Positions 10,663 through 60,177 of a stretch of 64,000 bases of DNA are shown in pieces. The stretch comes from Dictyobacter formicarum (GTDB taxonomy: Bacteria; Chloroflexota; Ktedonobacteria; Ktedonobacterales; Ktedonobacteraceae), in the NCBI RefSeq assembly GCF_016587435.1, contig NZ_BNJJ01000005.1, forward strand, positions 310,001-374,000, in the 5' to 3' direction. The position numbers were made by a program, and so were the translations under genes. A model generated the notes under the pieces. The model was not told the DNA's origin, made no database searches, and worked only from the letters and a program-made list of their open reading frames with translations. The stretch's first letter is position 1. Each line of letters opens with the position of its first letter.

Positions 10663-10723
10663 AAAGTAATCATTCTGCCAAAGCTCAGGCGCTCCAGCAC
10701 CTGTTCGCAAAGGCGCGAAATGA

Positions 10724-12142
10724 TTAGTGATCTACTCCTTCGATCTCGGATGCAGCCTGGGCATCGCCATGATCAGCCGCCCAGCGCAGGGCTTCACCGG
10801 CCAGGTAAAGCGACCCCGTTGCGCAGATCAAGTCCGCAGTATCAGCCAGGTCTGTGGCCAGGTCCAGCGCCTGCTCACAGGTCTCGGCCAGGCGAACAGA
10901 CACGCCGGGGGCATATTGCTGCAATAAGGCCTGCAATTCCTCGGGTCGCATGGCACGCGGATTATTCGCATGGGTCAGGATGATTGTATCTACATCTGTC
11001 AGCTCTTGTAGCATGTGCGAGATGTCTTTATCTTTATTCACGCCCAGCACGATTAGCAGGCGATGTGGATCAAAGGTGGTGCGCAGGGCACGCAGCAACT
11101 TGTGCATAGAATCGGCATTATGTGCTCCATCTACCACGATGGTTGGCTCACGTCCCACAATCTGTATGCGCGCGGGCCAGTGAACGGCAGCCAGTCCTGT
11201 ACGCAGAGCTTGCTCATCCCATTCGATTCCTTGCTTACGCAACTCTTCGAGGGTCGCGACTGCCACTGTAGCATTTTCTACCTGATATGCCCCAAGCAAC
11301 GGCGTCGTCAGGTTGGTATAACTACCGGTGGGTGTCTGTATTGAGAAGCGTTGCCCATCTTCGCGCTGCTCATGGATTTGATAGCGATAATCAAGCGGCG
11401 GAACCTGGCCAGCCACTACCTCAGCCTGGGCTGGATCTTCTCCCGTGGCTCCAATTCGTACGATACGCGCATTACGCTGGCGGGCGATGGCTGTAATCGC
11501 CACCAGCGCTTCGGGAGACTGCGCGGAAGTAACAACCAGTCCATTGGGTTTGATGATGCCTGCTTTCTCAGTGGCAATTTTGGTCAGAGTGTCACCCAGG
11601 ACACTCATATGATCATAGCTGATAGAGGTAATTACCGAGACTAGAGGTTGCGTCACATTGGTGGCGTCCAGGCGTCCTCCCAAGCCAACTTCAACCACGG
11701 CATGCTGGACATGCTGACGCGCAAAATATAATAAGGCCAGGGCTGTGCCAATCTCATAGGTAATAAAAGGGCCATACTGCTGGCTGGCTTGCACCTTCTC
11801 AACCGCGGCCTGGATCTCGGGTACCAGATCTGCCAGTTCTTGCTCACCAATTAAATGGCCGTTGGTCTGCGAGCGCTCACGAAAGGTATGCAGGTCCGGC
11901 TGCGTATAGAGGCCGGTACGCAGGCCCGCTTCGCGCAAGACACGCTCAATGTAAGCCGCCGTTGATCCTTTTCCCTTTGTGCCTGCAATCAGTGTATTAC
12001 TATATTGCAAATGGGGATTACCCAGCTGCTTTAATAGTTCAACCTCGCGCAAAATATTTTCATTGCGATCTCTAGTATATTTGCCGCTACGCTCATAATC
12101 AGTAAAACTATAAATATATTCTAGTGCTTCTTTATAATTCAC
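10724..12142 (-). CDS. folC: Folylpolyglutamate synthase / dihydrofolate synthase
   Basis: A 472-residue Mur-ligase-fold enzyme that joins glutamate to dihydropteroate and/or tetrahydrofolate. The ATP-binding loop GTKGKGS lies at 54-60, and the family stretches VEVGLGGRLDATN, SYDHMSVLGDT, EKAGIIK and VDGAHN are all present. The start is GTG at 12142, preceded by GGAG with a seven-base gap. It begins 14 bases after the end of folP on the same strand, giving a folP-folC operon for two consecutive steps of folate synthesis. Whether it is mono- or bifunctional is not visible, though bacteria with one folC usually use it for both. Confidence 0.95.
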   Translation of the reverse strand: MNYKEALEYIYSFTDYERSGKYTRDRNENILREVELLKQLGNPHLQYSNTLIAGTKGKGSTAAYIERVLREAGLRTGLYTQPDLHTFRERSQTNGHLIGEQELADLVPEIQAAVEKVQASQQYGPFITYEIGTALALLYFARQHVQHAVVEVGLGGRLDATNVTQPLVSVITSISYDHMSVLGDTLTKIATEKAGIIKPNGLVVTSAQSPEALVAITAIARQRNARIVRIGATGEDPAQAEVVAGQVPPLDYRYQIHEQREDGQRFSIQTPTGSYTNLTTPLLGAYQVENATVAVATLEELRKQGIEWDEQALRTGLAAVHWPARIQIVGREPTIVVDGAHNADSMHKLLRALRTTFDPHRLLIVLGVNKDKDISHMLQELTDVDTIILTHANNPRAMRPEELQALLQQYAPGVSVRLAETCEQALDLATDLADTADLICATGSLYLAGEALRWAADHGDAQAASEIEGVDH

Positions 12143-45662: not shown

Positions 45663-46259
45663 CTAGCCAGGGAAAACACAGAGGGTACCACAGGCCTCAC
45701 ACCAGCCTGAGAGCTTGCCATCATCTAATGCGTGAACATTGGACAGACGGCGAGCACAGCGACATACATGGCCGTGCACACGCGCAGGATTGCCAAAAAC
45801 CAGCGTGTACGGTGGCACATCTCTGGTGACAACAGATCCCGCTCCGATCAAAGCGAATTCGCCAATCGTGACTCCACAGACAATCACCGAGCCAGCTCCC
45901 AGCGAAGCTCCATATTTGACCAGCGTAGGTGTCACCTCCCAATCCTCGGCACTCTTCAATTGACCGTCAGGTGTGATCGCCCGTGGGAACATATCGTTGG
46001 TAAAACATACATGCGGACCAATAAAAACGCCATCTTCGATCGTGACTCCCTCGAAGAGCGAAACGTGGTTCTGAATTTTAACGCGCGAACCAATAGAGAC
46101 ATGCGATTCAACATAGACCCCCTTGCCGATGTTGCACTGTTCTCCAATGCGGGACTGGGAACGCACGTGTGCCTGGCGCCAGATGCGGGTGCCAGCGCCA
46201 ACCTGCGCTCCTTCCTCTACTTCGGCCTGAGGATGAACATAAAATGATGTTGCTTGCAT
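45663..46259 (-). CDS. WbpD-like sugar N-acetyltransferase (left-handed beta-helix)
   Basis: A 198-residue hexapeptide-repeat acetyltransferase (repeats from VEEGAQVGAGTRIW to GEFALIGAGSVVTRDVPPYTLVFGNPAR). The CFTNDMFPRAITPDGQLKSAEDWEVTPTLVKYGASLGAGSVIVCG segment is that of UDP-3-amino-GlcNAcA N-acetyltransferases (WbpD/WlbB). The usual WbpB and WbpE partners are not in the window. The C-terminus adds a possible zinc site (CRC and CEACGTLC). Its ATG overlaps the stop of the deacetylase gene (TAATG), so it closes the left-arm operon. Confidence 0.85.
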   Translation of the reverse strand: MQATSFYVHPQAEVEEGAQVGAGTRIWRQAHVRSQSRIGEQCNIGKGVYVESHVSIGSRVKIQNHVSLFEGVTIEDGVFIGPHVCFTNDMFPRAITPDGQLKSAEDWEVTPTLVKYGASLGAGSVIVCGVTIGEFALIGAGSVVTRDVPPYTLVFGNPARVHGHVCRCARRLSNVHALDDGKLSGWCEACGTLCVFPG

Positions 46260-47326
46260 TATTTTCCTTTTACGCGACGAGCATTGGTAAAATTATTACG
46301 AATGAAGGGCAGCCAGCGCAAACGGGAAATAAAACCCCATAGTCCTGCCGCCTCAGCCGCCACGACCAACCAGTGCTGGTCAATATCTGCTTCAATACGG
46401 CACAAGCGATATGGATCGCTGGTCGGCGTGTTAATACCATAGGTAGTGGTAACGGCCCAATCATAGCCAGCATCTTTGACTGCCTGGACCACAGCGTCGC
46501 TGATATGCTGGGCCTGCCCGACAGGATAGGCAAAACTACGCACAGGGTGCCCAAGCTTATTTTTCAGTACCCGACGACATTCGGTTACTTCATAGCGCAT
46601 TTCAGCCGTGTCAGTAATATAAGAAAGAATTGGATGATGCATGGTATGGGCACCGAAAGTAATCCAACCACTTTTATCCATCTCCAGCGCCTGCTCCCAG
46701 GTAACCGAAAGCAGATCTTCATCCCGATCCTGCTTATCAGCCTTGGACGATACATCCAGCGCTGCTCTGGCCTCGGACAAAAAGTTCTCGCGCTGAGCTA
46801 CCGAGGTTGCAAAACGAGCATGGTCATCGATAAATTGAGCCAGAACCGGCCGGGCCCCCTCTTGCTCTAGATTGAAATGTTTCTTATCCAGGGTAAACTC
46901 GCGGGCACGTGCCCGGCGAGCCATGCTCTGGCCTTCAAACCACCAGAAGCGCTGATGGGTTTCGATATAGCCCGGAACAAGATAAATAGTTAAAGGAATA
47001 TAATAATCGCGGGCCACATTCATGGCATAGGTATAATTGTCAGTATAACCATCATCTAAGCTAATAACGAGTGGTGTACGTCGATCATTTTGATACTTAG
47101 GATCTTTCTGTCCGCTGTAGAGTTCTTCCAGTGCGGCGTCTAATGACATAATACGATAGTGACGACGCAGATACCGCAGGTGTTGTAAAAAGTTGCCACC
47201 CACCGAAGAGTGGTAGGTTAAGATGGCGACTCGCCGTCCCGCTCGCTGCGTCCACCGGCGAGCCAGAGCAATCAGGCCGCTGTAATAGAAGAAGCCAGCC
47301 AGCATTATCAGAATTCGTCTACTCAT
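46259..47326 (-). CDS. Polysaccharide deacetylase, cassette copy 3 (deacetylase only)
   Basis: A 355-residue CE4-type deacetylase. A membrane-associated N-terminus (ILIMLAGFFYYSGLIAL) is followed by ILTYH and the metal motif SLDDGY (Asp91, Asp92) and then HTMHH (His227, His231). These residues bind the metal used to remove N-acetyl groups from aminosugars. Motif 1 has Ser-Leu in place of the Thr-Phe of the other two copies. The Met at 47326 is preceded by AAGGAAG; the frame opens at 47362. It follows flavoprotein copy 2 after a 92-base gap containing a hairpin, and its own ATP-grasp and flavoprotein partners are missing. Confidence 0.88.
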   Translation of the reverse strand: MSRRILIMLAGFFYYSGLIALARRWTQRAGRRVAILTYHSSVGGNFLQHLRYLRRHYRIMSLDAALEELYSGQKDPKYQNDRRTPLVISLDDGYTDNYTYAMNVARDYYIPLTIYLVPGYIETHQRFWWFEGQSMARRARAREFTLDKKHFNLEQEGARPVLAQFIDDHARFATSVAQRENFLSEARAALDVSSKADKQDRDEDLLSVTWEQALEMDKSGWITFGAHTMHHPILSYITDTAEMRYEVTECRRVLKNKLGHPVRSFAYPVGQAQHISDAVVQAVKDAGYDWAVTTTYGINTPTSDPYRLCRIEADIDQHWLVVAAEAAGLWGFISRLRWLPFIRNNFTNARRVKGK

Positions 47327-47362
47327 CCTAACTTCCTTTGACACTACTTCCATCGACCACAT

Positions 47363-47394
47363 ATGAGTTATCTCGCTTGTGTGAGATAACTCAT
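47363..47394 (-). other. Hairpin separating the second cassette from the third deacetylase
   Basis: Perfect 12-base arms (47363-47374 and 47383-47394, loop gcttgtgt) lie between the flavoprotein stop and the deacetylase start. Without a U-tract it may slow RNA decay or partly end transcription. Confidence 0.55.
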
Positions 47395-47418
47395 GCTAGC
47401 AATCTGGGTAGATGAGGT

Positions 47419-48645
47419 TTAGCGCGAACGCACCACCTGTTTGGCAATAGCGCCGGAAGCTCGGCGAGCAGCAGCATCAGCTCCCACAACGAAGCGATAG
47501 AAAGGACCGAAGCTACGTGCAGACGAGAAGCCAACAAAGTAGAGACCTGGTACGCTGGTCTCAAAATGGCTGTTCAGGACTGGTGAGCCACGATGGGTCT
47601 GCAATGAATCCTTAATGTTCTCGTCCAGCATCGGCAATGCTTTCACGTCTGGGCGATAACCGGTACCAAGGATAACATGATCATAGACCTCTTCCTGACC
47701 ATTGGCCAGCGTCAGCTTTACTTTTCCGTCTACTTCCTCAATCTTTGCGATAGATGTATTCTCGCGCAGATCGACCTGTCCAATGATGCGCGGCCTCAAC
47801 CAGTGCGATCCAGCCGGTCCATGTGTATTGTCGACGATGTCATCGCGGCGAGCGCGGGACGCGCTATGCAGGGAGTAAGGATACTTCTCCTGAATCAAGT
47901 TGGACCAGCCATAGCCCATACCAGCCTTTGGAGCTCGCAGATTGCGCACCCAGGCTGGGTATTTCGTGTTCTGAAGGGTGAGCCAGCGCACTTTACGACG
48001 CACGAATACGGATACTTTGGTACCCTGCTCATTCAATAGCGCCGCCGTCTCCAGGGCTCCCTGGCCGCCACCAATAACCGCGACTCTCTTGTTTTTGAAT
48101 GACTCCAGCGTAGCATGGTCAGCCTGGTGCGAAACCAGGTGCTTGGGCATATGCGCATAATCTTCTGGAGAATAGATATAGTAGTGTAGTCCAGGAGCAA
48201 CAACTACTACTTTGCTCGTCACTACACGTCCATCTTCCAGGGTCACGCGATAGTGATCATCGACACGTTCGATGTTACTGATATATGTTTCATCGACATC
48301 AGGTACAGCATGTTTCTGGAACCAATTGACATAATCCAGGAAAGTTTCGCGCGGCATCGGATCAACCGGAGTTTTGCCGTGCGCCTCATAATAGCGGGCA
48401 ATCGCATATTTCCCCTGTGGATCTGAAAGGCTGGAAGCCCACCAGAAGGAACGCAGCAACATGCCATCAGGCATATGATTGCGCCAGAAATAATTCACTT
48501 TTCCAAAGGTAGCTACTTTGAGCCCATGACCCATTAAATGGGCAGACACAGAGAGACCATAAGGGCCGGCGCCCATAACGACCACATCATATTGAGTAGA
48601 AGGTGTAGAAGCCTGATTCTTTTTAGCGTTTAAAGAGACACTCAC
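47419..48645 (-). CDS. FAD/NAD(P) flavoprotein, N-hydroxylase-like, cassette copy 2
   Basis: A 408-residue two-dinucleotide-domain flavoenzyme. The FAD motif is GAGPYGL (25-31), the NADP motif is VIGGGQGALE, and the C-terminal LGTGY matches the (A/L)TGY motif of lysine/ornithine N-monooxygenases and class B flavin monooxygenases. The stretch MLLRSFWWASSLSDPQGKY follows the FAD domain in both copies. It probably hydroxylates an amine or other nucleophile, though a plain oxidoreductase is possible. The start is GTG, with GGAGG eight bases upstream. It follows ATP-grasp copy 2 by 19 bases. Confidence 0.82.
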   Translation of the reverse strand: MSVSLNAKKNQASTPSTQYDVVVMGAGPYGLSVSAHLMGHGLKVATFGKVNYFWRNHMPDGMLLRSFWWASSLSDPQGKYAIARYYEAHGKTPVDPMPRETFLDYVNWFQKHAVPDVDETYISNIERVDDHYRVTLEDGRVVTSKVVVVAPGLHYYIYSPEDYAHMPKHLVSHQADHATLESFKNKRVAVIGGGQGALETAALLNEQGTKVSVFVRRKVRWLTLQNTKYPAWVRNLRAPKAGMGYGWSNLIQEKYPYSLHSASRARRDDIVDNTHGPAGSHWLRPRIIGQVDLRENTSIAKIEEVDGKVKLTLANGQEEVYDHVILGTGYRPDVKALPMLDENIKDSLQTHRGSPVLNSHFETSVPGLYFVGFSSARSFGPFYRFVVGADAAARRASGAIAKQVVRSR

Positions 48646-48664
48646 GATAAATTCCTCCAGAGAG

Positions 48665-49963
48665 TTATTTACTCAATTTGCGTACGGAACGATAAGAAAA
48701 ATCCTTTGCCGCACTCCAAACAGGTTTTAGGTCCTTCAAATCAACATAATCATAACCAGTAGGCATAAAAAAACTTGAACAAAATTGTAAAATAGTCTGA
48801 GCCGGTGACGGCACGCCTGGTCGGCCACGCTGGGCCAGGGCCTCAGCAGTTGTAACGATGTCGCCTTCCAGAAAACGCATCCACCCTCCGGTTTGATAAC
48901 CATCAACAGGCTCGATAGCTTCTCCCGCTGCCCATTGATAGAGCAGATAGGGAAAATCAATGCCAGAACGTACCGCAACTTCGACGGAGGCCGAGAGCCG
49001 GGGATTAATTTCCATCAGGTATGGTTTTCCAGCTTCGTCACGGCGAAACTCTACTTCAGAATAGCCTTCCAGTTCAATTTCCCGCACCAGTCTCTCTGAC
49101 TGCTGCCCGATATCATCTGGAATAGCGATACTCTGTCGTAAGACCGAAGTACCACCCAGTGGTGGCTGGGTGCGCTTAGCCCACTGGGCAAAGCGTGCAT
49201 AGAAGGTGCCCTGTCCATAAAGCAGGCTGACCGCTTCCCGGCGACCAGTCAGGAACTGCTGAAACAGGGTACTACCACCAAATTGGGTTAACTTTTCGAC
49301 AGCCTGATACGCTTCATCCGGCGTTGTTACCAACTCACAAATCAAGCGCACTCCTTGTTGTTCTCCCCATAACCAGGTTTCGATTGGTTTGACGACGGCA
49401 GGCAAACCAATCTCACGTATGGCTTCCTTGACCTCACTGGTAGAAGAGACTGTCACGCCTTTGGGAATGTCCAGACCTAACCGCTCAGCAATTGACAGGG
49501 TGAGATCCTTGTTAATCGCCACTTCCAGAGCAGGCTCCCTGGCCAGAGCAATACGTGTGTATTTTTCAATCTCCTCCCGGTGCTCGCGAATAACCGCTAG
49601 CGTACCATCTGAAGAGGTCAACAATACCCGCGCACCCATATAGGCCAATATCTGGTGCAGATAGGCCAGATAGGGCTCCACCTGTTGATCATAGGCCGGT
49701 GCCACATAGGCGCGCTCACACCAACGCGACGCGAACGTAGGGATAGCGCGAGACCTTCTAGATGGCTGCGCAGTCTCAAGAGCGGCTACATGCATCCCTC
49801 GTTTTCCTAGCGAACGCACTGCCACCAAAGATTGACGCAAATTGGCATCTAATACCAGTGCGTCATACGTCGGCGACCGCGTCACAAGGTCTTCGGCATA
49901 TTGTGACTGCGGAATAGCTGCCTTCCGACCTTTCGCGTCATTATTTTTTAAAGAGTTTGGCAT
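48665..49963 (-). CDS. ATP-grasp carboxylate-amine ligase-like enzyme, cassette copy 2
   Basis: A 432-residue ATP-grasp protein of the carbamoyl-phosphate-synthetase-like type. It has a Rossmann-like pre-domain (YDALVLDANLRQSLVAVRSLGKRG), a central AINKDLTLSIAERLGLDIPKG, the ATP-binding AVVKPIETWLWG and the Mg-binding MEINPRLSAS. Such enzymes join a carboxylate to an amine or thiol via an acyl phosphate. The nearby deacetylase suggests a sugar amine as acceptor (inference). The ATG at 49963 lies within the end of the deacetylase gene (23-base overlap) after an AGGAAA site, so translation is coupled. Confidence 0.82.
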   Translation of the reverse strand: MPNSLKNNDAKGRKAAIPQSQYAEDLVTRSPTYDALVLDANLRQSLVAVRSLGKRGMHVAALETAQPSRRSRAIPTFASRWCERAYVAPAYDQQVEPYLAYLHQILAYMGARVLLTSSDGTLAVIREHREEIEKYTRIALAREPALEVAINKDLTLSIAERLGLDIPKGVTVSSTSEVKEAIREIGLPAVVKPIETWLWGEQQGVRLICELVTTPDEAYQAVEKLTQFGGSTLFQQFLTGRREAVSLLYGQGTFYARFAQWAKRTQPPLGGTSVLRQSIAIPDDIGQQSERLVREIELEGYSEVEFRRDEAGKPYLMEINPRLSASVEVAVRSGIDFPYLLYQWAAGEAIEPVDGYQTGGWMRFLEGDIVTTAEALAQRGRPGVPSPAQTILQFCSSFFMPTGYDYVDLKDLKPVWSAAKDFSYRSVRKLSK

Positions 49964-50984
49964 ACTTTTTCCTGATTCGAGATACGATACCCAGCAGTCC
50001 AACAAGTTCGGCTGCCATGACCATCCAATTCACTTCGGTATCGCCAGGCATACGGCCTAGCAATAAGGGATTTGACTCGCTGGTATTGAGCGTTTCCAGG
50101 GTCGTTACCGCCCAGGTAAAACCTGCTGCCTTAACAGCCTCAATTCCTTGCTCACCAATGTGTTGCATTTTCCCAACGGGATAGGCAAACAAGCGAACCG
50201 AATGGCCCAGATTCTCTTCTAGAAGCTGGCGTGAAGCCTGCACTTCGTGCAATATTTCCGCTGGATCTGATAAATAAGCCAGAATAGGATGATTGACTGT
50301 ATGAGCACCGTAAGAAACCAGTCCGCTGGCTTCCATTTCGCGAATCTGTTCCCAGGTCATCGGTAAATCAGTATCGTTGGGAGTCAGATCGCGACATGGC
50401 AGTGCTAGCTGCAAAGCCAATTGCACATCTGAGAGAAATTGCTCTCGCTCAGCAATTGACGTCGCGTGCCGTGCTCGTCCATCAATGATATCGATTAATG
50501 CCTGGCGTTCGTGCGGTACCGACAGGTGATAGGTGCAGCCATCAAAGCACACCTGCTCACACTTGAGCAGGCTAATCAATTTGCTGGCCGCTAACCACCA
50601 GAAGTAGCGGCCACTTTCGACATAACCAGGAATTAAAAAGATCGTTATCGGTACTTGATAGCGCTGCGCCAGTCGAAATCCTTCGGTGTAGTTATCAATA
50701 TAACCATCATCAAAGGTTAAAACGAGCAGACGACGGCGATCACGTTTACTAGCAACGCTTTTTTGTGTTCTTTTTATAAAAAGCTCTTCCAGAGCCTCCT
50801 CTAAATGTACAATGCGATAGTGACGCTGCAGGTAACGCATGTGCGCCTCCAGGCCACCGTCCGCATTATGATAGTTAAGAATAAGCAACCGTTGGTCAAA
50901 CCGCTCATTGATCCGCAAAGCCAGATAAGTAATACCCAGGTAGTAAAACATTGCCGCAATTACTACGCGCATGCGTTCGTACAT
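49941..50984 (-). CDS. Polysaccharide deacetylase, cassette copy 2
   Basis: A 347-residue CE4-type deacetylase with the same layout as the other copies: an N-terminal hydrophobic segment (VVIAAMFYYLGITYLAL), ILNYH, TFDDGY (Asp92, Asp93) and HTVNH (His228, His232). A cysteine pair (CEQVCFDGC) occurs only in this copy. It was probably exported or membrane-held, since the first helix has no clear cleavage site. GAGGGG precedes its ATG, in a leader resembling that of copy 1. It begins 57 bases after flavoprotein copy 1 and overlaps the next ATP-grasp gene. Confidence 0.9.
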   Translation of the reverse strand: MYERMRVVIAAMFYYLGITYLALRINERFDQRLLILNYHNADGGLEAHMRYLQRHYRIVHLEEALEELFIKRTQKSVASKRDRRRLLVLTFDDGYIDNYTEGFRLAQRYQVPITIFLIPGYVESGRYFWWLAASKLISLLKCEQVCFDGCTYHLSVPHERQALIDIIDGRARHATSIAEREQFLSDVQLALQLALPCRDLTPNDTDLPMTWEQIREMEASGLVSYGAHTVNHPILAYLSDPAEILHEVQASRQLLEENLGHSVRLFAYPVGKMQHIGEQGIEAVKAAGFTWAVTTLETLNTSESNPLLLGRMPGDTEVNWMVMAAELVGLLGIVSRIRKKYAKLFKK

Positions 50985-51041
50985 AATAAACCCCTCACAC
51001 CCTTAATACTTCTGGCAGCAATTGTGTTGCACGCATCACAC

Positions 51042-52280
51042 CTATCTATGGTGAGCTACATAGCGTGCAGCTCCGACAGCCACTCGCTTTCCAGCAGCTT
51101 TCGCACCCACAACAAAACGATACAATGGACCAAAGGCACGCACAGAACTGAGACCAATAAAAAACAATCCCGGGACGCTACTTTCAAACCAGTGACTTAA
51201 AATCGGAATATGCTGGTCTTCTCGGATCTGGGATAACAGAGATGGGTCGATCATCGAAAGGTTCTTTACCGTGACCTCGTAACCGGTACCAAGCAGCAGA
51301 TGGTCAACCTGAATTCGCTGTCCATCCGAAAGCAATACATCCAGTTTGCCGTCTCGTTCTTTAAGCTCTTTGATTGCCGTGCGCTCATGTACTTTGACCT
51401 TATCTTCGCCCATTACCCGCTCACGCAGCCAGTGGGAAGCCGCAGCCTGGTAATGCGATTTAATAAAGCGGTCTTTGCGATCCTGCGAGAAGAGATAGAA
51501 TAGATATGGCATATATTCCAATACCCAGTTTTCCCAGCCAGGAGCAATACCGGCCGACGGAGCCTGAATTTTTTCCCACAATGTGCGCTCATCGTGGCGA
51601 TCTCGTGGCAACCAGTTAATTGAACGACGAACGACCAGGTGCACATCAGCGGCTTCTCCATCCTCCAGGAGCAACGCAGAATATTCAACAGCGCTTTGCC
51701 CACCTCCCAGAACCATGATATTTTTACCTTTAAACTGACTATAATCACCATGATCGAAGGCATGGGAGACCAGCTCTTTAGGGAAACCGCTAAATTCCTG
51801 CGGCCGTCGACTGAAATAATACACTCCAATCGCCATCACCACCGATGTTGCCTGCACCTCACGCCCATCTTCCAGGGTTACGATAAAACGTTCATTTTGC
51901 CGTTTAATTGAAGTTACATAGGTCTCATCCACATTAGGTACAGCATTTTTTTGGAACCAGAAAGCATAATCTAAAAAGAGTTTCATCGGAACAGGATAAG
52001 GATTTTTTATATTCCTCATCTTTAAGTAACGCGCAAAACTATACTTTTTTTGTGGATCAGAAAGACTTGTCGCCCACCAGTGAGAGCGCAAGTACATTCC
52101 CGCAGGCATATGCCTGGTCCACAACTCCATTGGCTTGCCAAAGACAGCTACATTTAATCCTTTGCCGATCAAATGAGCAGCCGTAGTAAGACCATAAGGG
52201 CCGGCCCCAACAACAATCACATCGTATTGCGCGACCGGTGTCAACTGCTGAGATTCTTGTAAGTCAGACACAACACTCAT
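51042..52280 (-). CDS. FAD/NAD(P) flavoprotein, N-hydroxylase-like, cassette copy 1
   Basis: A 412-residue homologue of the flavoprotein at 47419. The FAD motif GAGPYGL is at the same residues (25-31), the NADP motif reads LGGGQSAVE, closer to the GxGQSAxE form of ornithine N5-hydroxylases, and LLGTGYE closes the domain. MYLRSHWWATSLSDPQKKY replaces the corresponding segment of copy 2. AAAGGAG lies seven bases before the ATG at 52280, and its ATG overlaps the ATP-grasp stop by four bases (ATGA). The frame opens at 52334. Confidence 0.82.
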   Translation of the reverse strand: MSVVSDLQESQQLTPVAQYDVIVVGAGPYGLTTAAHLIGKGLNVAVFGKPMELWTRHMPAGMYLRSHWWATSLSDPQKKYSFARYLKMRNIKNPYPVPMKLFLDYAFWFQKNAVPNVDETYVTSIKRQNERFIVTLEDGREVQATSVVMAIGVYYFSRRPQEFSGFPKELVSHAFDHGDYSQFKGKNIMVLGGGQSAVEYSALLLEDGEAADVHLVVRRSINWLPRDRHDERTLWEKIQAPSAGIAPGWENWVLEYMPYLFYLFSQDRKDRFIKSHYQAAASHWLRERVMGEDKVKVHERTAIKELKERDGKLDVLLSDGQRIQVDHLLLGTGYEVTVKNLSMIDPSLLSQIREDQHIPILSHWFESSVPGLFFIGLSSVRAFGPLYRFVVGAKAAGKRVAVGAARYVAHHR

Positions 52281-53593
52281 AAGGAACTCCTTTTGATACG
52301 TGACAACCTTTTGGCAATAGCCCCTCCTACCCACTCAAACGTGAATTCCGTTGATGCTTTTATAGCAGGGGTCAAATCATTCCAATCCACGTAGTCATAA
52401 TTCATAGGTTGAAAAAAAGAGAGGGTAAAACCTAGTACAGCCTGGCCTGGTGGGGTTATGCCGGGACGCCCACGTTTCTGTAGAGCTTCAATCGTCGTCA
52501 TAATATCCCCTTTAAGGTAGCGCATCCAGCCCCCTACGCGATACGAACGAACCTTATCGATCTTTTCGCCATTTGCCCATTGATAGAGCAGATGAGGAAA
52601 ATCAACGCCAGAACGTACGGCAATTTCTACCGACGCTGATAAACGAGGATTGATCTCCATAAGATAGGGGATGCCTGCCTGGTCGCGCCGAAATTCGACC
52701 TCGGAATAGCCCTCCAGGTCGATTTCACGGATCAACCGCTCAGACTGAGCGCCAATGTCTTGCGGCACAGCAATGCTCTGGCGTAGGACCGAGGTTCCGC
52801 CTAGTTGGGGCTCGGTACGCCTGGCCCATTGAGCAAAACTGGCATGCACCTCTCGGTTCGCATACATAATGCTTACCGCCTCACGCCGACCAGTTAAGAA
52901 CTGCTGAAACAGGATGGTACCACCCAGTTGAGTCAATTCTTCCACAGCTCGGCGCGCTTCATCTGCTGTAGTTACCAGTCGAGAAGCAAAGCGGGCACCG
53001 CCCCCTTGCTGCTCATCCCATAACCAGGACTCAACTGGCTTGATAACAGCTGGTAAGCCAATCTCTTTGACAGCAGCTGACACTTCATCTACGGAGCTGA
53101 TCGTTGCGCCACGCGGGATACCCAATCCCAGTTGTCTGGCGACATCCAGTGTTAGCTCCTTGTTGATGGCAATCCCCATCGCAGGATCACGTGCCAGAGC
53201 AATCTTTACGTGCTTTTCCAGCCGCTCCCGATGCTGGCGCAAGAGAGCTACTGTACTATCAGAAGATGCGATGGCGACGCGAGCACCGCTACGCTCTAAC
53301 CATTGTTCGAGGAAGTTAAGATAGGCCGCAGTTCCAGCACTACTGGGACAGACAATACCTTGCTGGCACCAACGTGAAGAAAACGCCGGAACCTGGTTCT
53401 CTGCCTCCAGAGCTGCCACCTTCAATCCACGTTTACCCAATGAGCGTATCGACACCAGTGACTGACGCAAGGCCGCGTCCAACACCACTGCATCGTATAT
53501 TTTCGGCTTGCCTCCACCATTATTGACAGATTGCTCATTTAGAGTAGATTGAGTAGCGCCAATGCTATCTACATCAGATGAATGACGTAACAC
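52277..53593 (-). CDS. ATP-grasp carboxylate-amine ligase-like enzyme, cassette copy 1
   Basis: A 438-residue homologue of the ATP-grasp enzyme at 48665, with YDAVVLDAALRQSLVSIRSLGKRG, AINKELTLDVARQLGLGIPRG, AVIKPVESWLWD and MEINPRLSAS. It lacks about ten residues of the pre-domain loop present in the other copy and has a GGGAR insertion after the ATP-binding stretch. The frame opens at 53707 inside the deacetylase gene. I prefer GTG at 53593, because it gives a length similar to its homologue and follows GAGGTG. The stop overlaps the flavoprotein start. Confidence 0.82.
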   Translation of the reverse strand: MLRHSSDVDSIGATQSTLNEQSVNNGGGKPKIYDAVVLDAALRQSLVSIRSLGKRGLKVAALEAENQVPAFSSRWCQQGIVCPSSAGTAAYLNFLEQWLERSGARVAIASSDSTVALLRQHRERLEKHVKIALARDPAMGIAINKELTLDVARQLGLGIPRGATISSVDEVSAAVKEIGLPAVIKPVESWLWDEQQGGGARFASRLVTTADEARRAVEELTQLGGTILFQQFLTGRREAVSIMYANREVHASFAQWARRTEPQLGGTSVLRQSIAVPQDIGAQSERLIREIDLEGYSEVEFRRDQAGIPYLMEINPRLSASVEIAVRSGVDFPHLLYQWANGEKIDKVRSYRVGGWMRYLKGDIMTTIEALQKRGRPGITPPGQAVLGFTLSFFQPMNYDYVDWNDLTPAIKASTEFTFEWVGGAIAKRLSRIKRSSL

Positions 53594-53627
53594 GCAACAC
53601 CTCAAAGATAAAAAGATATTTATTGCT

Positions 53628-54674
53628 CTATATATCTGCTTTTTCGTTAATAAAAGGTTTCCATAGTGGTGCGAATATACTCCAGATACCCGAGGTTTCT
53701 GCAGCAATTAAGAGCCAGTGGCGCCGCACATCTACCAGAACACGTTCCAGACGATAGGGGTCGCTCTGTGGCGTTGCAATCCCTTTTGTAGTTGTTACAG
53801 CCCAACAATATTCCGCCTCACGCACTGCCTTGAGGGCCTCCGTTCCAATATGTTCGGTGCGGCCGATAGGATAGGCAAAAGTTCGGATAGGCTTGCCCAG
53901 CCGCTCCTGCAACACCTGACGGCAGGTGGCGATTTCATAGCGCACCTCCGCTGGATCTGATAAACAGGCTAATACCGGATGATGCATGGTGTGAGCTCCA
54001 AAGGAGACAAAACCACTTTTCTGCATTTTCAGTACTTCCCCCCACGACAGGGGAATATTAACATCTTTTACCTCTTCTTCGCAAGTATTTGGTGCTATTA
54101 TAGCTAAATCGTGCCTCACCTGCGTCAAAAACTGCTCTCGTTCTGCCACCGAGCGGGCGATGCGCAAACGAGCATCAATTGATTGGGCCAGAGCTTTCTG
54201 TGACTCGGGCTGCTGCAAATGATATGTCTGACCATCAAGGATAAATTCATCGAGTTGAGTCTGCTTCACCAGGCGCTCACCTTCACCCCACCAGAAATAA
54301 TCTCCACTATCGATATAGCTGGGGATCAAAAAAATGGTAATAGGTACCTGCAGTTCAACGGCCGCTTGAAAAGCATGGGTATAATTATCGTGATAGCCAT
54401 CATCAAACGTTATCACGACCGGTGTACGTTGCTTACTCGACTTTCTGGCAGGCGGCTGTGGAGCATATAGTTCCTCCAAGGCCTCTTCCAGATGCAGAAT
54501 TCGATAATGTCGATTCAAATATTGCATATGCCGCCGGATATCACCCAGGCTCGCACGATGGTAATTTAAGATAAGCAAACGCGGCCCCCGCCGACGCATA
54601 CGCCAGCGACTGAGCTTCACCAGGCCAGAATAGTAGAAAAATGCCGCAACCAGTAAACGTGCTGCTCTACGCAT
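53628..54674 (-). CDS. Polysaccharide deacetylase, cassette copy 1
   Basis: A 348-residue CE4-type deacetylase, first of the three. It carries the N-terminal segment RLLVAAFFYYSGLVKL, ILNYH, TFDDGY (Asp91, Asp92) and HTMHH (His228, His232), so the metal site is intact. The conserved EEALEELY helix after the first strand is shared by all copies. AAGGGG precedes the ATG at 54674; the frame opens at 54698. The preceding gene on the same strand is the dimethylformamidase-like secreted protein, 108 bases upstream. Confidence 0.9.
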   Translation of the reverse strand: MRRAARLLVAAFFYYSGLVKLSRWRMRRRGPRLLILNYHRASLGDIRRHMQYLNRHYRILHLEEALEELYAPQPPARKSSKQRTPVVITFDDGYHDNYTHAFQAAVELQVPITIFLIPSYIDSGDYFWWGEGERLVKQTQLDEFILDGQTYHLQQPESQKALAQSIDARLRIARSVAEREQFLTQVRHDLAIIAPNTCEEEVKDVNIPLSWGEVLKMQKSGFVSFGAHTMHHPVLACLSDPAEVRYEIATCRQVLQERLGKPIRTFAYPIGRTEHIGTEALKAVREAEYCWAVTTTKGIATPQSDPYRLERVLVDVRRHWLLIAAETSGIWSIFAPLWKPFINEKADI

Positions 54675-54782: not shown

Positions 54783-56444
54783 TTAAAAACTATTGGGATT
54801 ATGCTTCACAATCAGTGCTGCCATCACGTTAGCCATCAAGGATTGCATTTCCGGAACGGCAGTGCTTTTGTCTCCACATTTTGGATCAACATGTGCCCGA
54901 TAGTTGTCCAGGGTTGTTTCCCAATATATTGATCCGGTAGCAAAGACCAGAGCACCTGAGGGAGCAATATAGTAAGATGAATTGCTGACATCAGTCTGCT
55001 TAGTTTCGCTGCTGACTGTGGGTGATGCGCTAATAATATGCAAATTCTTTGGTGTGGTACTACTATAGGATGGATTGTCTGGTGTGCCATTAGGATCAAG
55101 ATGTGCTCGATCCCATTCATAACCAACAACTCCACAGCCGTAATCCTGGTTAGGCTGTAAGTTAGTGCCCTTGAGCAATGGCAATGAGGCAGCCTGAGGC
55201 GCTACACGCCAGGGAAAACCATTTTGATCGTGGGTAAGGTTAGAGAATAAAACCCCTACCACGGCATTCTCGGGCCGACCTACCACAGGATCGCGCCACA
55301 TACTGGTAACGACGGAATTATCTTTACCATACATTGGATCGCGCGCAAGGTCCTGGTTGGCGGTCTGAACCTTGTAAGAGACAATGGTACGGTTGGCACC
55401 ACCAGCAGAATCAGGCTCAAAACGCATTTGCCAGTAGATAGCATTGGCCCCCATAAAGGCTAAACCAATCCCTTTGTTACGCGCATTCTCTATTGTTGTG
55501 CGCATACTCTTCGTCCAGTATTCATCATGGCCTAGAGAGATATAAGCTTTATGTTTATCCAATAGATGGGGATTCGTCTGCATATCAATGTCACTTGCGT
55601 ATGAAACGTCGTAGTTGTGCTGCTCCATCCACCGCACTGTCTGCACAATAAATACCAGCACCTGACTGGCACCATTTTCGATATCATAGGGTTTATCCAT
55701 GGAAACTTTGACAGCTCTCTTGGCAACCGCCGTTCCCAGGAACGCATCATCAGCATCATACAGGCTGGAACCGCCCCAATCATTATAGGCAGCATACGTA
55801 GTATCCGGCGTAACAGCGATGTATGGCGAGGTTGTTGACCCCAACACATCAAAAGGGGCGTAGGACTGCTTACCATTGGCATCAGTAAATTTCGCCAGAT
55901 AAATCCCGGTAGTCCAATCTTTGGGAATATGCAAGGTATATGATGGCTTCCAGTGCGTCTCAACCAGGCCGCTATCCTTTGCCAATGTGCAGGTAGTACA
56001 GTTTACGAGATGACTACCAACGCTATCGTAGTATCCCTGGGCCTGTCCAGAAAGATTGGGAACTGAAGTCATCAAGCGCCCACCCAGGCCGCTGTACCAT
56101 CCCAGTCGAAAAATATCAATACGATAAGAAGTCTGAGCCACCTGAGTGCTGATATAAAAAGTTAGAGACTTCCCTGGTTTGACAGAAGTCGCGCTCACGT
56201 ACCCCTGGATTTGCGTGGTAGCTTCACTGCCTGGAGGAATCTTCCACGATGTCGTACCAGTCAATGCATTTTCACGCGTTATAGCATTATCTGAGCCCGA
56301 AGAGGCATTATCACGGCCATAGTTGAGCGTAGGCGATTGATCATTCGAGCCAACCATTAAAGATGGCGACAAGAAATAAAAACTGATCAGAGCTCCTGCA
56401 ATAATAAAGATAGTCACAATCGTGACAACAGACTTGAACCTCAT
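54783..56444 (-). CDS. Secreted N,N-dimethylformamidase-beta-like protein
   Basis: A 553-residue protein with an N-terminal helix or uncleaved signal (VVTIVTIFIIAGALISFYFL) and a large extracytoplasmic region. IQGYVSATSVKPGKSLTFYIST, YRIDIFRLGWYSGLGGRLM and LGHDEYWTKSMRTTIENARNKG belong to the family annotated as N,N-dimethylformamidase beta-subunit-like. Most secreted members have no known substrate; an amidase-type role on a surface polymer is possible here. GGAGG lies seven bases before the ATG. It opens the left arm of the polysaccharide locus, divergent from the right arm. Confidence 0.8.
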   Translation of the reverse strand: MRFKSVVTIVTIFIIAGALISFYFLSPSLMVGSNDQSPTLNYGRDNASSGSDNAITRENALTGTTSWKIPPGSEATTQIQGYVSATSVKPGKSLTFYISTQVAQTSYRIDIFRLGWYSGLGGRLMTSVPNLSGQAQGYYDSVGSHLVNCTTCTLAKDSGLVETHWKPSYTLHIPKDWTTGIYLAKFTDANGKQSYAPFDVLGSTTSPYIAVTPDTTYAAYNDWGGSSLYDADDAFLGTAVAKRAVKVSMDKPYDIENGASQVLVFIVQTVRWMEQHNYDVSYASDIDMQTNPHLLDKHKAYISLGHDEYWTKSMRTTIENARNKGIGLAFMGANAIYWQMRFEPDSAGGANRTIVSYKVQTANQDLARDPMYGKDNSVVTSMWRDPVVGRPENAVVGVLFSNLTHDQNGFPWRVAPQAASLPLLKGTNLQPNQDYGCGVVGYEWDRAHLDPNGTPDNPSYSSTTPKNLHIISASPTVSSETKQTDVSNSSYYIAPSGALVFATGSIYWETTLDNYRAHVDPKCGDKSTAVPEMQSLMANVMAALIVKHNPNSF

Positions 56445-57233
56445 GCAGGATCCTCCGCATTCATTCTTTTAAGCATAGATTTATTTCTTTACAATAATAC
56501 AATACAAGTAAGAGATTATTCTCCACTAGAATATAGCATTAGAAAATGATGGAGCAATGAATAATACGTTACCCCTTACAAAAATACCATAGATGTTGTG
56601 AAAAATAGATGTTCATATCGGTAGAGAATCAGTGAATCATCTGGCAAAAGTGTAGAGAAATTCATGAGATAACTTCCACCGTGGTGATTATTTAACCACG
56701 AAATACATTCAAACGTAGGAATATTTTCCTCATGGTTACATTATCTGATTGTTATCTACTATACTGTGCAAAGTATGAAATTTATGCAAAAAGTACGATA
56801 TGCGGAAATGGATGCCCTGAGTGTCGTTACTATATATTGACGGCTTACTCTGGTAGCGTTATCCAGGTGATGAGTGCATAAAAATACAGTAGGGCTCATC
56901 AAATATACGAGTAAAAACCCTTACTCCCTTGCAATAGCATAAATAGTTTTATTTAGTCTCGTCCCTAAAAATAGGAGGAAACAAACATAAACCTCATGGG
57001 GTCATTATCTCAACAAAGGAGTGCTATTTTCAACGTCTTCTCAACACGAGCGACAACCTGATTCTCATCTATAGAAGGTAAGCTTTTAAGAAGAACATTG
57101 GTAAAATCAACCTTTATGTTGTTGATGTATCATAGGCAAATTTATTCATTAGTACTACACAATAGACATTTTTATGGTAATCTGACATTGTCATTTATAG
57201 ATGACTAAAAAATCTGGTAAGGACGGTATTTCA
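56445..57233. other. Divergent AT-rich control region of the polysaccharide locus
   Basis: About 790 bases between the two arms, markedly more AT-rich than the flanking genes and without a secure gene. Two purine-rich, ribosome-site-like stretches (near 56972 and 57016) precede only very short frames. No known riboswitch pattern was recognised. It probably holds both promoters and long leaders. Confidence 0.6.
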
Positions 57234-58670
57234 ATGCGGAGTACGCTAAGTCGCTATATACTACTCGCAAAACGTTGGGCATGGGTCATAATACTTGGTA
57301 TGGTTATTTGTGGCGGTACAACCTACCTCGTCACCAAACTGCTGATGCAACCCGTCTATGAAGCACAAACACGCCTCCTGATTACGCTGGCGGGTACGTC
57401 ACAAAACGATAGTACGACAGCGGCTATTGCTCAGCAACCAACCTATACTCAGTTGATCACCAACCCCAATGTCCTTAGTCCTGTGGCTGCCAAACACAAT
57501 ATGACACTTAAACAATTGAGCAGCATGGTCAAAACACAGCCTGGCACTAACACTCCTATTATTGATATTCTGGTTGATAGCACTGATCCACAGCTGGCAG
57601 CACAACTCTCCAGAGAGGTCGCACGCAGCTTCACCGATTATGCCAATACCCGTCTGGGTAGTCAGGCAAACTTTAATATCATTGACCCGGTAGTTCCAAC
57701 GGACCCGGTTAGACCACGTCCTTCACAGGATTCACTGATTGGTGCTCTGGTTGGCCTGGGTCTGGCACTGGCCATTATTGTTATATTTGAATGGATAGAT
57801 GATCGTCTAACCGCTCCTGAAGAGGTCAATAAATTACTGGGTATTGATGCACTAACAATCATCCCTGAGCTTTCCCGCAAACAGCGTTCACGCAATGCAG
57901 AAGAGACTCCAGAGTTGGCTGAGGGATGCCGCATTCTATGCGCCAATCTGAATATGGCACAGATGCTTCGTCCATTTAAATTAGTAATGGTAACCAGCTC
58001 AATGGCCGGCGAGGGTAAAAGCACGATCGCTGCTAATATGGCTTCATTCCTGGCTATGTCTGGCAAACGAGTGCTGCTTGTAGATGCCGATCTACGCCAT
58101 CCTGTGCTGGACCAACACTTTCAGCTGGCGAATCAAAAGGGGCTCTCAAATGCTTTCCTGGAGATGTGGGCCCAGATTGAAACGGAGCTAGATGGACAGC
58201 CAACTGAGATTCCTTCACTGCGTGTCTTGACCGCTGGCGTGCTCCCATCCAATCCATCAGAGTTGCTGCAGTCCCAACTGGCCAGTCAACTCTTCAATCA
58301 TTTCCGCAATACACCCAAATTTGACTATATCATTTTCGATACTCCACCTCTGCTTCCGATTGCCGATGCTCAAATTATGGCGGCATATATGCAAGTAACG
58401 ATTTTGGTCGTTGATGCCTCACGCACACCACGCAAAGCAATGCTACGGGCGAAGCAAGCGCTCGCTCGAACAGGTACACGTATTCTGGGTGTGGCGCTCA
58501 ATAAAAGCTACTGGCCTGAATATGGTGAGGTGCATGATTATCTGAGCAATATTCAATCGCGCCCACGGGCTGATATTGCTATGGCTATGCCGCCCCATAC
58601 ACCTGTTATCAATCACGCTATTGATGCCACCAATACCGCTATTCTCCCTTCTACTAACAATAAACGTTAA
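57234..58670 (+). CDS. Polysaccharide co-polymerase / BY-kinase-like protein (Wzz-Wzc type)
   Basis: A 478-residue protein combining an N-terminal Wzz domain (membrane helices near 15-40 and 165-190, with the proline-rich VPTDPVRPRP before the second) and a CpsD/CapB-type ATPase. Walker A is SSMAGEGKST, Walker A' is VLLVDADLRHP and Walker B is IIFDTPP. It should set chain length and export of the polymer. The C-terminus lacks the tyrosine cluster that BY-kinases autophosphorylate; only two Tyr occur, in WPEYGEVHDYL. The frame opens at 57201; the Met at 57234 follows AAGGACGG. Confidence 0.88.
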   Translation: MRSTLSRYILLAKRWAWVIILGMVICGGTTYLVTKLLMQPVYEAQTRLLITLAGTSQNDSTTAAIAQQPTYTQLITNPNVLSPVAAKHNMTLKQLSSMVKTQPGTNTPIIDILVDSTDPQLAAQLSREVARSFTDYANTRLGSQANFNIIDPVVPTDPVRPRPSQDSLIGALVGLGLALAIIVIFEWIDDRLTAPEEVNKLLGIDALTIIPELSRKQRSRNAEETPELAEGCRILCANLNMAQMLRPFKLVMVTSSMAGEGKSTIAANMASFLAMSGKRVLLVDADLRHPVLDQHFQLANQKGLSNAFLEMWAQIETELDGQPTEIPSLRVLTAGVLPSNPSELLQSQLASQLFNHFRNTPKFDYIIFDTPPLLPIADAQIMAAYMQVTILVVDASRTPRKAMLRAKQALARTGTRILGVALNKSYWPEYGEVHDYLSNIQSRPRADIAMAMPPHTPVINHAIDATNTAILPSTNNKR

Positions 58671-58772: not shown

Positions 58773-58875
58773 TATAAAAGCAACATACAGCATATATACG
58801 TCAATTTTATCTTTTTTGTAAATTTCTGTGTTTTTTGAAAAAATGTTTGAGCATATAAAAGGAAAACAAAGGTTA

Positions 58876-60177
58876 ATGAAAAATCAACTCCTGGAGAAGA
58901 TCTCCTCGCGCTCATTACGAGTTGCTATTATTGGACTTGGTTATGTGGGGCTGCCGCTAGCCGTGACTTTCGCCGAGGCCGGTTTTCAGGTTACGGGCAT
59001 CGATGTTGATCAGAAAAAAGTCGATCTGGCCAATGAAGGGCAAAGCTATATCTCAGATATTGAGAGCGATAATCTACAACGCCTGGTCGCTGCAGGTACA
59101 TTAAAATTCACTACCGATTTTGGTGCCCTCGATGAGGTTGACGCCATCAGTATCTGCGTCCCTACTCCGCTACGCAAAACGCGGGAACCAGATGTCTCCT
59201 ATATTATTTCAGCGACCCAACAGGTACGTACCCATCTGCACGAGGGGCAGCTCATCATCCTGGAAAGCACAACCTATCCAGGCACAACAGATGAGGTGTT
59301 GCTCCCAGAGTTAGAGAACTCAGGATTAAAGGTGGGTGAAGACTTTTTCCTGGCATTCTCGCCCGAGCGCATTGACCCGGGCAATCCTAAATTCGGTACT
59401 AAAAATACACCCAAGGTGGTTGGTGGTATCACACCCTCATGCACCGAACTAGCCCAGGCTTACTATAGGGCAGCTATTGAACAGATTGTGCCAGTCACTT
59501 CGGCCCGCGTAGCTGAGATGACCAAGCTGCTTGAGAATACGTTCCGTGCCGTCAATATCGGCCTGGTCAATGAGATCGCTATTATGTGCGAAAAATTAAA
59601 TATCAATGTATGGGAAGTTATTGATGCAGCAGCGACCAAACCGTTTGGCTTTATGCGCTTTCAACCCGGTCCTGGCCTGGGAGGCCACTGCATACCGGTC
59701 GATCCGCATTACCTTTCATGGAAACTAAAGACGCTGGACTACAATGCACGCTTCATCGAGCTGGCAGCTGAGATCAATAGTAGCATGCCACACTATGTGG
59801 TAAACAAGGTTATGTCCGCACTCAATGAACAGCGTCGTAGCCTGAATGGCGCAACCGTTCTGGTACTGGGTATCGCCTATAAACGCAATGTCAGCGATGT
59901 TCGCGAGTCTCCAGCCCTGGATATTATTCAGGAGTTGATTTCACATAAAGCGGTTGTGCTCTATAACGATAATTATGTCCCCTCTCTGGCGCTTCAGGGC
60001 CGCACGCTGCATTCACAACTTGTGAGTAGTGGTTTAATGCAGGCCGCGGATTGTATTGTGCTGGTGACTGACCACGACTATTATGATGTCGCTTCTATAG
60101 TTGAGGAGTCACGCTCTATCGTCGATACACGCAATATGACCAGAGGATTTCAAGACGCCAAAATATTCAGACTTTAG
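58876..60177 (+). CDS. UDP-sugar 6-dehydrogenase (WbpA/WecC-like)
   Basis: A 433-residue nucleotide-sugar dehydrogenase that oxidises the C6 hydroxyl twice to make a UDP-uronate. The NAD motif is IIGLGYVGLPLA, with STTYPGTT and FSPERIDPGN following. The catalytic Cys272 lies in GGHCIPVDPHYLSWK. The sequence style is that of UDP-GlcNAc/ManNAc dehydrogenases more than UDP-Glc dehydrogenase, which would fit the WbpD-like acetyltransferase at the other end of the locus. The frame opens at 58828; the Met at 58876 begins the conserved region and follows AAAGG. Confidence 0.9.
   Translation: MKNQLLEKISSRSLRVAIIGLGYVGLPLAVTFAEAGFQVTGIDVDQKKVDLANEGQSYISDIESDNLQRLVAAGTLKFTTDFGALDEVDAISICVPTPLRKTREPDVSYIISATQQVRTHLHEGQLIILESTTYPGTTDEVLLPELENSGLKVGEDFFLAFSPERIDPGNPKFGTKNTPKVVGGITPSCTELAQAYYRAAIEQIVPVTSARVAEMTKLLENTFRAVNIGLVNEIAIMCEKLNINVWEVIDAAATKPFGFMRFQPGPGLGGHCIPVDPHYLSWKLKTLDYNARFIELAAEINSSMPHYVVNKVMSALNEQRRSLNGATVLVLGIAYKRNVSDVRESPALDIIQELISHKAVVLYNDNYVPSLALQGRTLHSQLVSSGLMQAADCIVLVTDHDYYDVASIVEESRSIVDTRNMTRGFQDAKIFRL

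Follow-up and report, generated by a model that had tools for sequence, protein, structure and literature searches.

The window analysed here is a stretch of 64,000 nucleotides from Dictyobacter formicarum (contig NZ_BNJJ01000005.1), and all coordinates given for it are positions within this stretch (Table 1). It contains a cassette of genes for predicted deacetylases, ATP-grasp ligases and flavoproteins, all on the minus strand and in the following order of transcription: a DMFA2_C-domain protein, deacetylase 1, ATP-grasp 1, flavoprotein 1, deacetylase 2, ATP-grasp 2, flavoprotein 2, deacetylase 3 and a hexapeptide acyltransferase that ends at position 45663. The closest relatives of the window proteins are from Dictyobacter, which places the window in the class Ktedonobacteria of the Chloroflexota. 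The original prediction, made from the DNA letters alone, had described the order deacetylase, ATP-grasp, flavoprotein as occurring twice and being followed by a lone deacetylase; this order and its coordinates proved correct, as did the two overlaps it named: the genes of flavoprotein 1 and ligase 1 share the ATGA at 52277-52280 and those of ligase 2 and deacetylase 2 overlap by 23 bases at 49941-49963. The genes of deacetylase 3 and the hexapeptide acyltransferase have one base in common. The start of ATP-grasp 1 is uncertain: its frame opens at TTG 53707 and offers no ATG, the first in-frame candidates being TTG 53605 and GTG 53593. The three-gene unit is thus present twice plus one deacetylase, but the description as a unit of three understated what is there, as it belongs to a larger locus.

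Table 1. Genes of the cassette row and of the divergent operon, with their positions in the window and the basis of each assignment
Feature	Position	Strand	Basis
DMFA2_C protein (N,N-dimethylformamidase-beta C-terminal-like domain)	54783..56444	-	PF20254 322 bits
CE4 polysaccharide/sugar N-deacetylase, copy 1	53628..54674	-	PF01522 72.8 bits; motifs TFDDG, HTMHHP, FAYPIG
ATP-grasp carboxylate-amine ligase, copy 1	52277..53605 (start uncertain)	-	PF15632 42.8 bits; MEINPR
Flavoprotein, N-hydroxylating-monooxygenase fold, copy 1	51042..52280	-	PF13434 54.6, PF13738 97.5 bits; motifs; fold modelled for copy 2
CE4 N-deacetylase, copy 2	49941..50984	-	PF01522 76.3 bits; motifs
ATP-grasp ligase, copy 2	48665..49963	-	PF15632 above cut-off; MEINPR
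Flavoprotein, copy 2	47419..48645	-	PF13738, PF07992, PF13434 above cut-off; motifs
CE4 N-deacetylase, copy 3	46259..47362	-	PF01522 68.7 bits; motifs SLDDG, HTMHHP, FAYPVG
Hexapeptide-repeat sugar acyltransferase (WbpD/NeuD-like)	45663..46259	-	PF00132; TIGR03570 98.6 bits, cut-off 160.8 not reached
Chain-length/tyrosine kinase (Wzc-like), divergent operon	57201..58670	+	TIGR01007 160.3 bits, above cut-off
Nucleotide-sugar 6-dehydrogenase (WbpA/WecC-like)	58828..60177	+	TIGR03026 455 bits, above cut-off; specific substrate models not reached
MurJ-type flippase, long C-terminal extension	60213..63158	+	TIGR01695 207.5 bits, residues 36-495, cut-off 235.6 not reached

The most widely conserved unit is not the three-gene cassette but the pair of ligase and flavoprotein, often without a CE4 deacetylase. 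Of the 25 loci with a type A ligase in Ktedonobacteria, 17 have an adjoining flavoprotein, seven do not and one is at a contig edge. Among 20 lower-scoring flavoproteins of Ktedonobacteria, 17 adjoin a ligase that belongs to a different subfamily, called type B, and sixteen type B rows fall together on one side of a branch with a support of 93 (two partial rows were excluded for length); the flavoprotein of G005, on the type A side of the tree, has no adjoining ligase and those of G014 and G030 are at contig edges. A flavoprotein also adjoins the ligase in 11 of 14 loci from soil metagenome-assembled genomes (MAGs), with one locus lacking it (L012) and two at contig ends (L018, L019). Of 298 Gemmatimonadota genomes, seven have the ligase, and in six of them the flavoprotein is no more than about 120 bases away; six of these seven genomes had already come up in an earlier homologue search; the flavoprotein is present in 12 of the 298, five of which have no ligase at the threshold used. 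On plasmids, flavoprotein homologues with 33-38% identity were found in eight records, and five of these have a gene annotated as ATP-grasp or carboxylate-amine ligase no more than two genes away (Mesorhizobium, two Bradyrhizobium, two Granulicella); the remaining three (two Streptomyces, Deinococcus) have no annotated ligase within this distance. Among the matches listed from the open-licence PMC literature, neither the pair nor the flavoprotein step was found described.

Several loci speak against an obligatory pair: D. aurantiacus has a solo flavoprotein without a neighbouring ligase, D. kobayashii has a tandem of two flavoproteins, and the nearest ligase to an extra flavoprotein of Ktedonosporobacter is type B-like and 3.5 kb and several genes away. 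The coordinates of the extra flavoproteins away from the cassette are L148 8901-11437, L149 8357-9598 and L150 8401-9624; the type B-like ligase about 3.5 kb upstream of the extra Ktedonosporobacter flavoprotein is accompanied by a FemAB-like gene. Ktedonosporobacter rubrisoli has a further ligase copy (L029, about 10001-11163) that is split over two frames with no flavoprotein in the 21 kb covered and is probably a broken gene. L013, L024 and L023 have long ligase frames; a scan of these for a fusion to the flavoprotein found none but revealed one fusion to GNAT: in the acidobacterial MAG locus L013 (1438-3855), a FemAB-like GNAT domain and the ligase share one frame of 805 residues, followed by a flavoprotein and then a CE4 deacetylase. 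Two haloarchaeal plasmid regions carry a distant ligase (about 31-32% identity) and a CE4 deacetylase, with no annotated flavoprotein. Oscillospiraceae MAGs (L040, L043, L044, L045, L049) show a different conserved neighbourhood, in which genes of about 262, 451 and 388 residues come after a distant ATP-grasp relative. Genes of the aminoglycoside N3-acetyltransferase family and for a luciferase-like monooxygenase adjoin the Gemmatimonadota pair in L023 (12387-14654) and are perhaps further sugar-tailoring genes.

Within the Ktedonobacteria, the predicted co-occurrence of the three families is supported. At thresholds of E 1e-40 for the type A ligase and E 1e-60 for both deacetylase and flavoprotein, 15 of 47 genomes have the ligase, 15 the deacetylase and 14 have both; the ligase is alone in G025 and the deacetylase in G038, at the same genomic site with the same three flanking genes. 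The flavoprotein is found in 30 of the 47 genomes. It scores above 500 bits in 12, all of which also have the ligase, while three genomes with ligase have none above 500 bits (Fisher P 6e-10 and 9e-9 for the co-occurrences, uncorrected for relatedness). A draw of 400 Chloroflexota genomes gave 16 with the ligase (E 1e-60), and 15 of these are the same Ktedonobacteria.

The double order, followed by a deacetylase and a hexapeptide gene, is conserved in Dictyobacter aurantiacus, kobayashii and arantiisoli and in Ktedonosporobacter rubrisoli; Thermosporothrix has a single set plus one deacetylase, the remaining loci vary in single members, and an additional flavoprotein precedes the cassette in two MAG loci. 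Phylogenetic trees were constructed from 33 ligase, 33 flavoprotein and 32 deacetylase rows; these are quick trees with SH-aLRT support and no bootstrap, and several forks are open. In all three trees, the rows of the seven double-cassette loci cluster by position, with rows of other loci interspersed, indicating that a block duplication took place that is older than these families. This agrees with the old duplication originally proposed, and unrelated insertion of the copies can be rejected for the Ktedonobacteria. The flavoproteins of the soil MAGs are on the copy-1 side with strong support but their ligases form a separate clade, which makes it likely that a pair was transferred into or out of a copy-1-like lineage.

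Differences between the copies are large: pairwise identities are 46, 46 and 43% for the deacetylases, 60% for the ligases and 46% for the flavoproteins, in line with the initial estimate by eye of a third or more. A motif scan shows that every copy has kept its motifs (TFDDG/SLDDG, HTxxHP, MEINPR, GAGPYG, GxGQxAxE, LGTGY). The ratio of non-synonymous to synonymous substitution rates (dN/dS) was determined for seven cassette genes against three other Dictyobacter genomes. It is between 0.059 and 0.128 in 19 of these 21 ortholog comparisons, with many dS values above 1, and in the other two (ATP-grasp 2 and flavoprotein 2 against L003) dS is saturated and the ratio is not estimable. These sequence data support that the copies remain under selection, in line with the predicted lack of decay and retention of catalytic residues.

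All three deacetylases match PF01522 well above the gathering cut-off of 23.1 bits and have the Asp-Asp and HxxxH motifs. VimE membership can be rejected: the VimE model NF053580 gave no match to the three proteins (P0001, P0004, P0007) at E up to 1 with HMMER filters on. Across the loci, the deacetylases belong to two families: CE4 in type A loci and PIG-L in some type B loci, where a PIG-L de-N-acetylase adjoins a hexapeptide acyltransferase in five of 17 paired loci (G004, G039, G040, G041, G044), four of the five being close relatives and some loci having been read with short flanks. In the soil MAGs, a CE4 deacetylase is present within 5 kb of the flavoprotein in three of 13 genomes (G401, G402, G412) and absent within 5 kb in ten; this is more than the 0.24 expected by a uniform estimate (P 0.002), but CE4 as an obligatory partner was rejected. 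A PIG-L gene was found on the contig of the flavoprotein in none of the 13.

The proposed surface-polysaccharide setting is supported. The window stops inside the divergent row; in five relatives this row continues with glycosyltransferases, one or two Asn-synthase amidotransferases and an epimerase and, further on, a WbpB-like oxidoreductase and a DegT aminotransferase (linked in 5/5). The WbpB-like gene lies past the end of the window and scores 191.6 bits with the WbpB-type model (cut-off 450). Matches of this kind, all below the model cut-off, are at most 25 kb from the cassette in 6/6 long-contig genomes; such matches occur in 46 of 47 genomes with up to eight per genome, and the chance product of the distance test is only indicative. 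The best match of the amidotransferases is TIGR03108, with 620.6 and 607.6 bits in D. aurantiacus, outside the window and below the cut-off of 816.9. At least one Wzc, Wzx, Wzy or glycosyltransferase gene is present in 16 of 17 paired type B loci and in the five type A continuations, and neighbours in the soil MAGs include an O-antigen ligase/polymerase, an Asn-synthase amidotransferase, a FemAB-like GNAT protein and DegT. FemAB/GNAT proteins, of the kind related to VimA, occur in type B loci and in some soil MAGs (for one of them TIGR03019 is the only model listed). In the type A stretches no VimA-like gene was identified by single-sequence search, several genes there being unannotated.

The module most similar to this locus is the Wbp/Vim system of Porphyromonas gingivalis and Tannerella forsythia, and the statement that no such pathway is described was too strong, given PMC7468200 on this system and PMC11800379 on an ATP-grasp amide ligase for a capsule sugar. 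The former proposes synthesis by WbpA/B/E/D, deacetylation at C-2 by VimE, transfer of serine or glycine by VimA and amidation by WbpS, which it places in the TIGR03108 family (PMC7468200). Both systems have a CE4 deacetylase, and the locus resembles Wbp/Vim in its putative Wbp-type genes for diamino-uronic sugars and its putative WbpS-type amidotransferase. They differ in that the cassette deacetylases give no match to the VimE model, and the word ATP-grasp has no occurrence in the main text of PMC7468200 (flavoproteins were not searched for there). In Campylobacter jejuni, the C-terminal ATP-grasp domain of Cj1438 amidates glucuronic acid of the capsule, so that there, too, a uronic acid in a surface polysaccharide receives an amide, but this domain is described as TupA-like and joined to a glycosyltransferase (PMC11800379), while the cassette ligase belongs to PF15632 and is paired with a flavoprotein. 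For the Caulobacter holdfast, the polysaccharide deacetylase HfsH and the putative N-acyltransferase HfsK have been suggested to share a pathway that acts on one adhesive polysaccharide; the available part of PMC5362036 does not mention a pair of ATP-grasp and flavoprotein, although it was not specifically searched for there. From the amidotransferases, the Wbp-like neighbours and the described Wbp/Vim steps it follows that the cassette sits where one would expect tailoring of the Vim kind, and the lack of an identified VimA-like gene in type A loci leaves room for a ligase making the amide instead. We conclude that the cassette is real, old and conserved, a probable tailoring module that resembles Wbp/Vim most and lies in a surface-polysaccharide locus, with the ligase-flavoprotein pair in addition.

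The two amidotransferases, AsnB-1 and AsnB-2, are deep paralogues. All genomes with both copy-1 and copy-2 flavoproteins (G001, G002, G003, G005, G006, G028, G032) carry both, with AsnB-2 of G028 cut by a contig end, and Thermosporothrix (G004), which has a ligase and flavoprotein of the copy-2 kind and deacetylases of the copy-2 and copy-3 kinds, has AsnB-2 only. Flavoprotein and AsnB thus match in 8/8 genomes, with one informative absence, the joint one in Thermosporothrix. The AsnB tracks the flavoprotein rather than the ligase, since G005, which has no ligase 1, and G032, which shows no ligase 2, both retain two amidotransferases. In D. kobayashii (G002; L176, L002), AsnB-1 is split over two frames, as is the epimerase gene, and there is a shortened ligase 1, which may be an assembly error or decay.

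The cassette probably puts an unusual nitrogen-containing decoration on polysaccharide sugars, and the chemistry would comprise deacetylation, amide ligation and N-oxidation, the chain named in the original prediction. In the scheme that we infer for substrates, order of steps and product, the locus would make a 2,3-diamino-uronic sugar by a Wbp-like route (dehydrogenase, WbpB-like oxidoreductase, DegT aminotransferase and hexapeptide acyltransferase), the CE4 deacetylase would free the sugar amine, as proposed for VimE, and the AsnB-type amidotransferase would turn the uronic carboxylate into an amide, like WbpS. The flavoprotein would N-hydroxylate the primary amine of a small amine, an amino acid or a sugar, and the ATP-grasp ligase would couple amine and carboxylate via an amide (hydroxamate) bond. 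With two cassettes and as many amidotransferases, two different sugar residues or positions could be served. We give about an even chance to this Vim-like tailoring of diamino-uronic sugars with added N-hydroxylation and ligation. Quite unlikely is the more specific product of a hydroxamate-decorated, iron-chelating coat, made by flavin N-hydroxylase and ATP-grasp ligase on diamino-uronic sugars with a flavoprotein and its own amidotransferase for each residue or position.

The added N-hydroxylation depends on the assignment of the flavoprotein. In the fold ranking of the predicted model of flavoprotein 2 (predicted local distance difference test score, pLDDT, 87), the seven top rows are all N-hydroxylating enzymes, among them PvdA (Z 35.2), KtzI (34.2), DesB (34.1), putrescine hydroxylase (33.7) and DfoA (33.1); PvdA is 4.6 Z units above the best flavin-containing monooxygenase (FMO), and thioredoxin reductases reach at most 25.5. 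The match covers most of the chain including the substrate domain, and the L-x-DP-x3-YS-x3-Y segment of DesB aligns with the flavoprotein. At the level of the predicted fold, the label N-hydroxylase-like is consistent with these data, and the flavoprotein may be an amine N-hydroxylase. It shares fold and FAD/NADPH motifs with PvdA, KtzI, DesB and SidA but is only 16-21% identical to them and has a different gene setting; the ornithine-binding lysine of the N-hydroxylases appears not to be conserved. SidA (30.1-31.4) ties with FMO (30.6), and YpdA follows at 29.7. Some points weigh against N-hydroxylation: some N-hydroxylases rank below FMO (lysine hydroxylase 5cqf 29.1, NbtG 28.2, EtcB 26.4). 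PF13434 scores 54.6 and 49.2 bits, above its gathering score of 21.3, but is outscored by PF13738 and PF07992 in both copies, and the best Pfam and NCBIfam matches are generic pyridine-nucleotide oxidoreductases. Among the 25 top-scoring families shown out of 57 and out of 75, the flavoproteins reach no curated N-hydroxylase equivalog (TIGR04439, histamine N-monooxygenase, scores 26.4 bits for P0003 with a cut-off of 700), and the best curated match of any kind, among the best 25 families, has 61.5 bits. It is possible, if on balance unlikely, that locus and tailoring role are as described but that the flavoprotein is another class B flavin oxidoreductase, such as one that oxygenates carbon or sulfur or that dehydrogenates the sugar substituent, and that the decoration is a plain amino-acyl or uronamide one.

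Two other explanations would separate the deacetylases from the pair. The deacetylases could act extracellularly on the finished polymer and tune charge or adhesion in the manner of PgaB or holdfast enzymes, independently of ligase and flavoprotein. Their nearest curated models are indeed PgaB and IcaB, both far below cut-off, and a hydrophobic N-terminal stretch is visible in their sequences; however, they are interleaved and co-inherited copy by copy with ligase and flavoprotein and are present in 14 of the 15 genomes with a type A ligase, and we regard independent action as unlikely. Alternatively, ligase and flavoprotein could make a small diffusible metabolite, siderophore-like or dipeptide-like, amid a polysaccharide island in which the deacetylases alone serve the polymer. 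Both ligases score above the gathering score of PF15632 and have the MExNPR motif, and the model of ligase 2 (pLDDT 83) has an ATP-grasp fold with matches tied between enzymes like amino acid ligase, PurK and PylC; the closeness to L-amino acid ligase and PylC among these ties would fit a small product, as would the pairs without nearby deacetylase in soil MAGs and the pair outside any obvious polysaccharide cluster on one Granulicella plasmid. The interleaved and overlapping genes of the window and the polysaccharide genes at nearly all paired type B loci and the five type A continuations make a diffusible product very unlikely.

The Vim-like tailoring scheme with N-hydroxylation and ligation links a flavoprotein and an ATP-grasp family of unknown function as a conserved pair, in a putative Wbp-type diamino-uronic setting and in lineages with surface polymers of little-known chemistry. 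Should the flavoprotein be an N-hydroxylase, siderophore-type chemistry would be added to bacterial polysaccharides, and the way in which flavoprotein copies match amidotransferase copies offers a direct handle on which enzyme serves which sugar. The DMFA2_C protein heads the cassette row in Dictyobacter and Thermosporothrix (L001, L002, L003, L005, L015) and is found in another place at the brp13 locus (L171 4422-6083).

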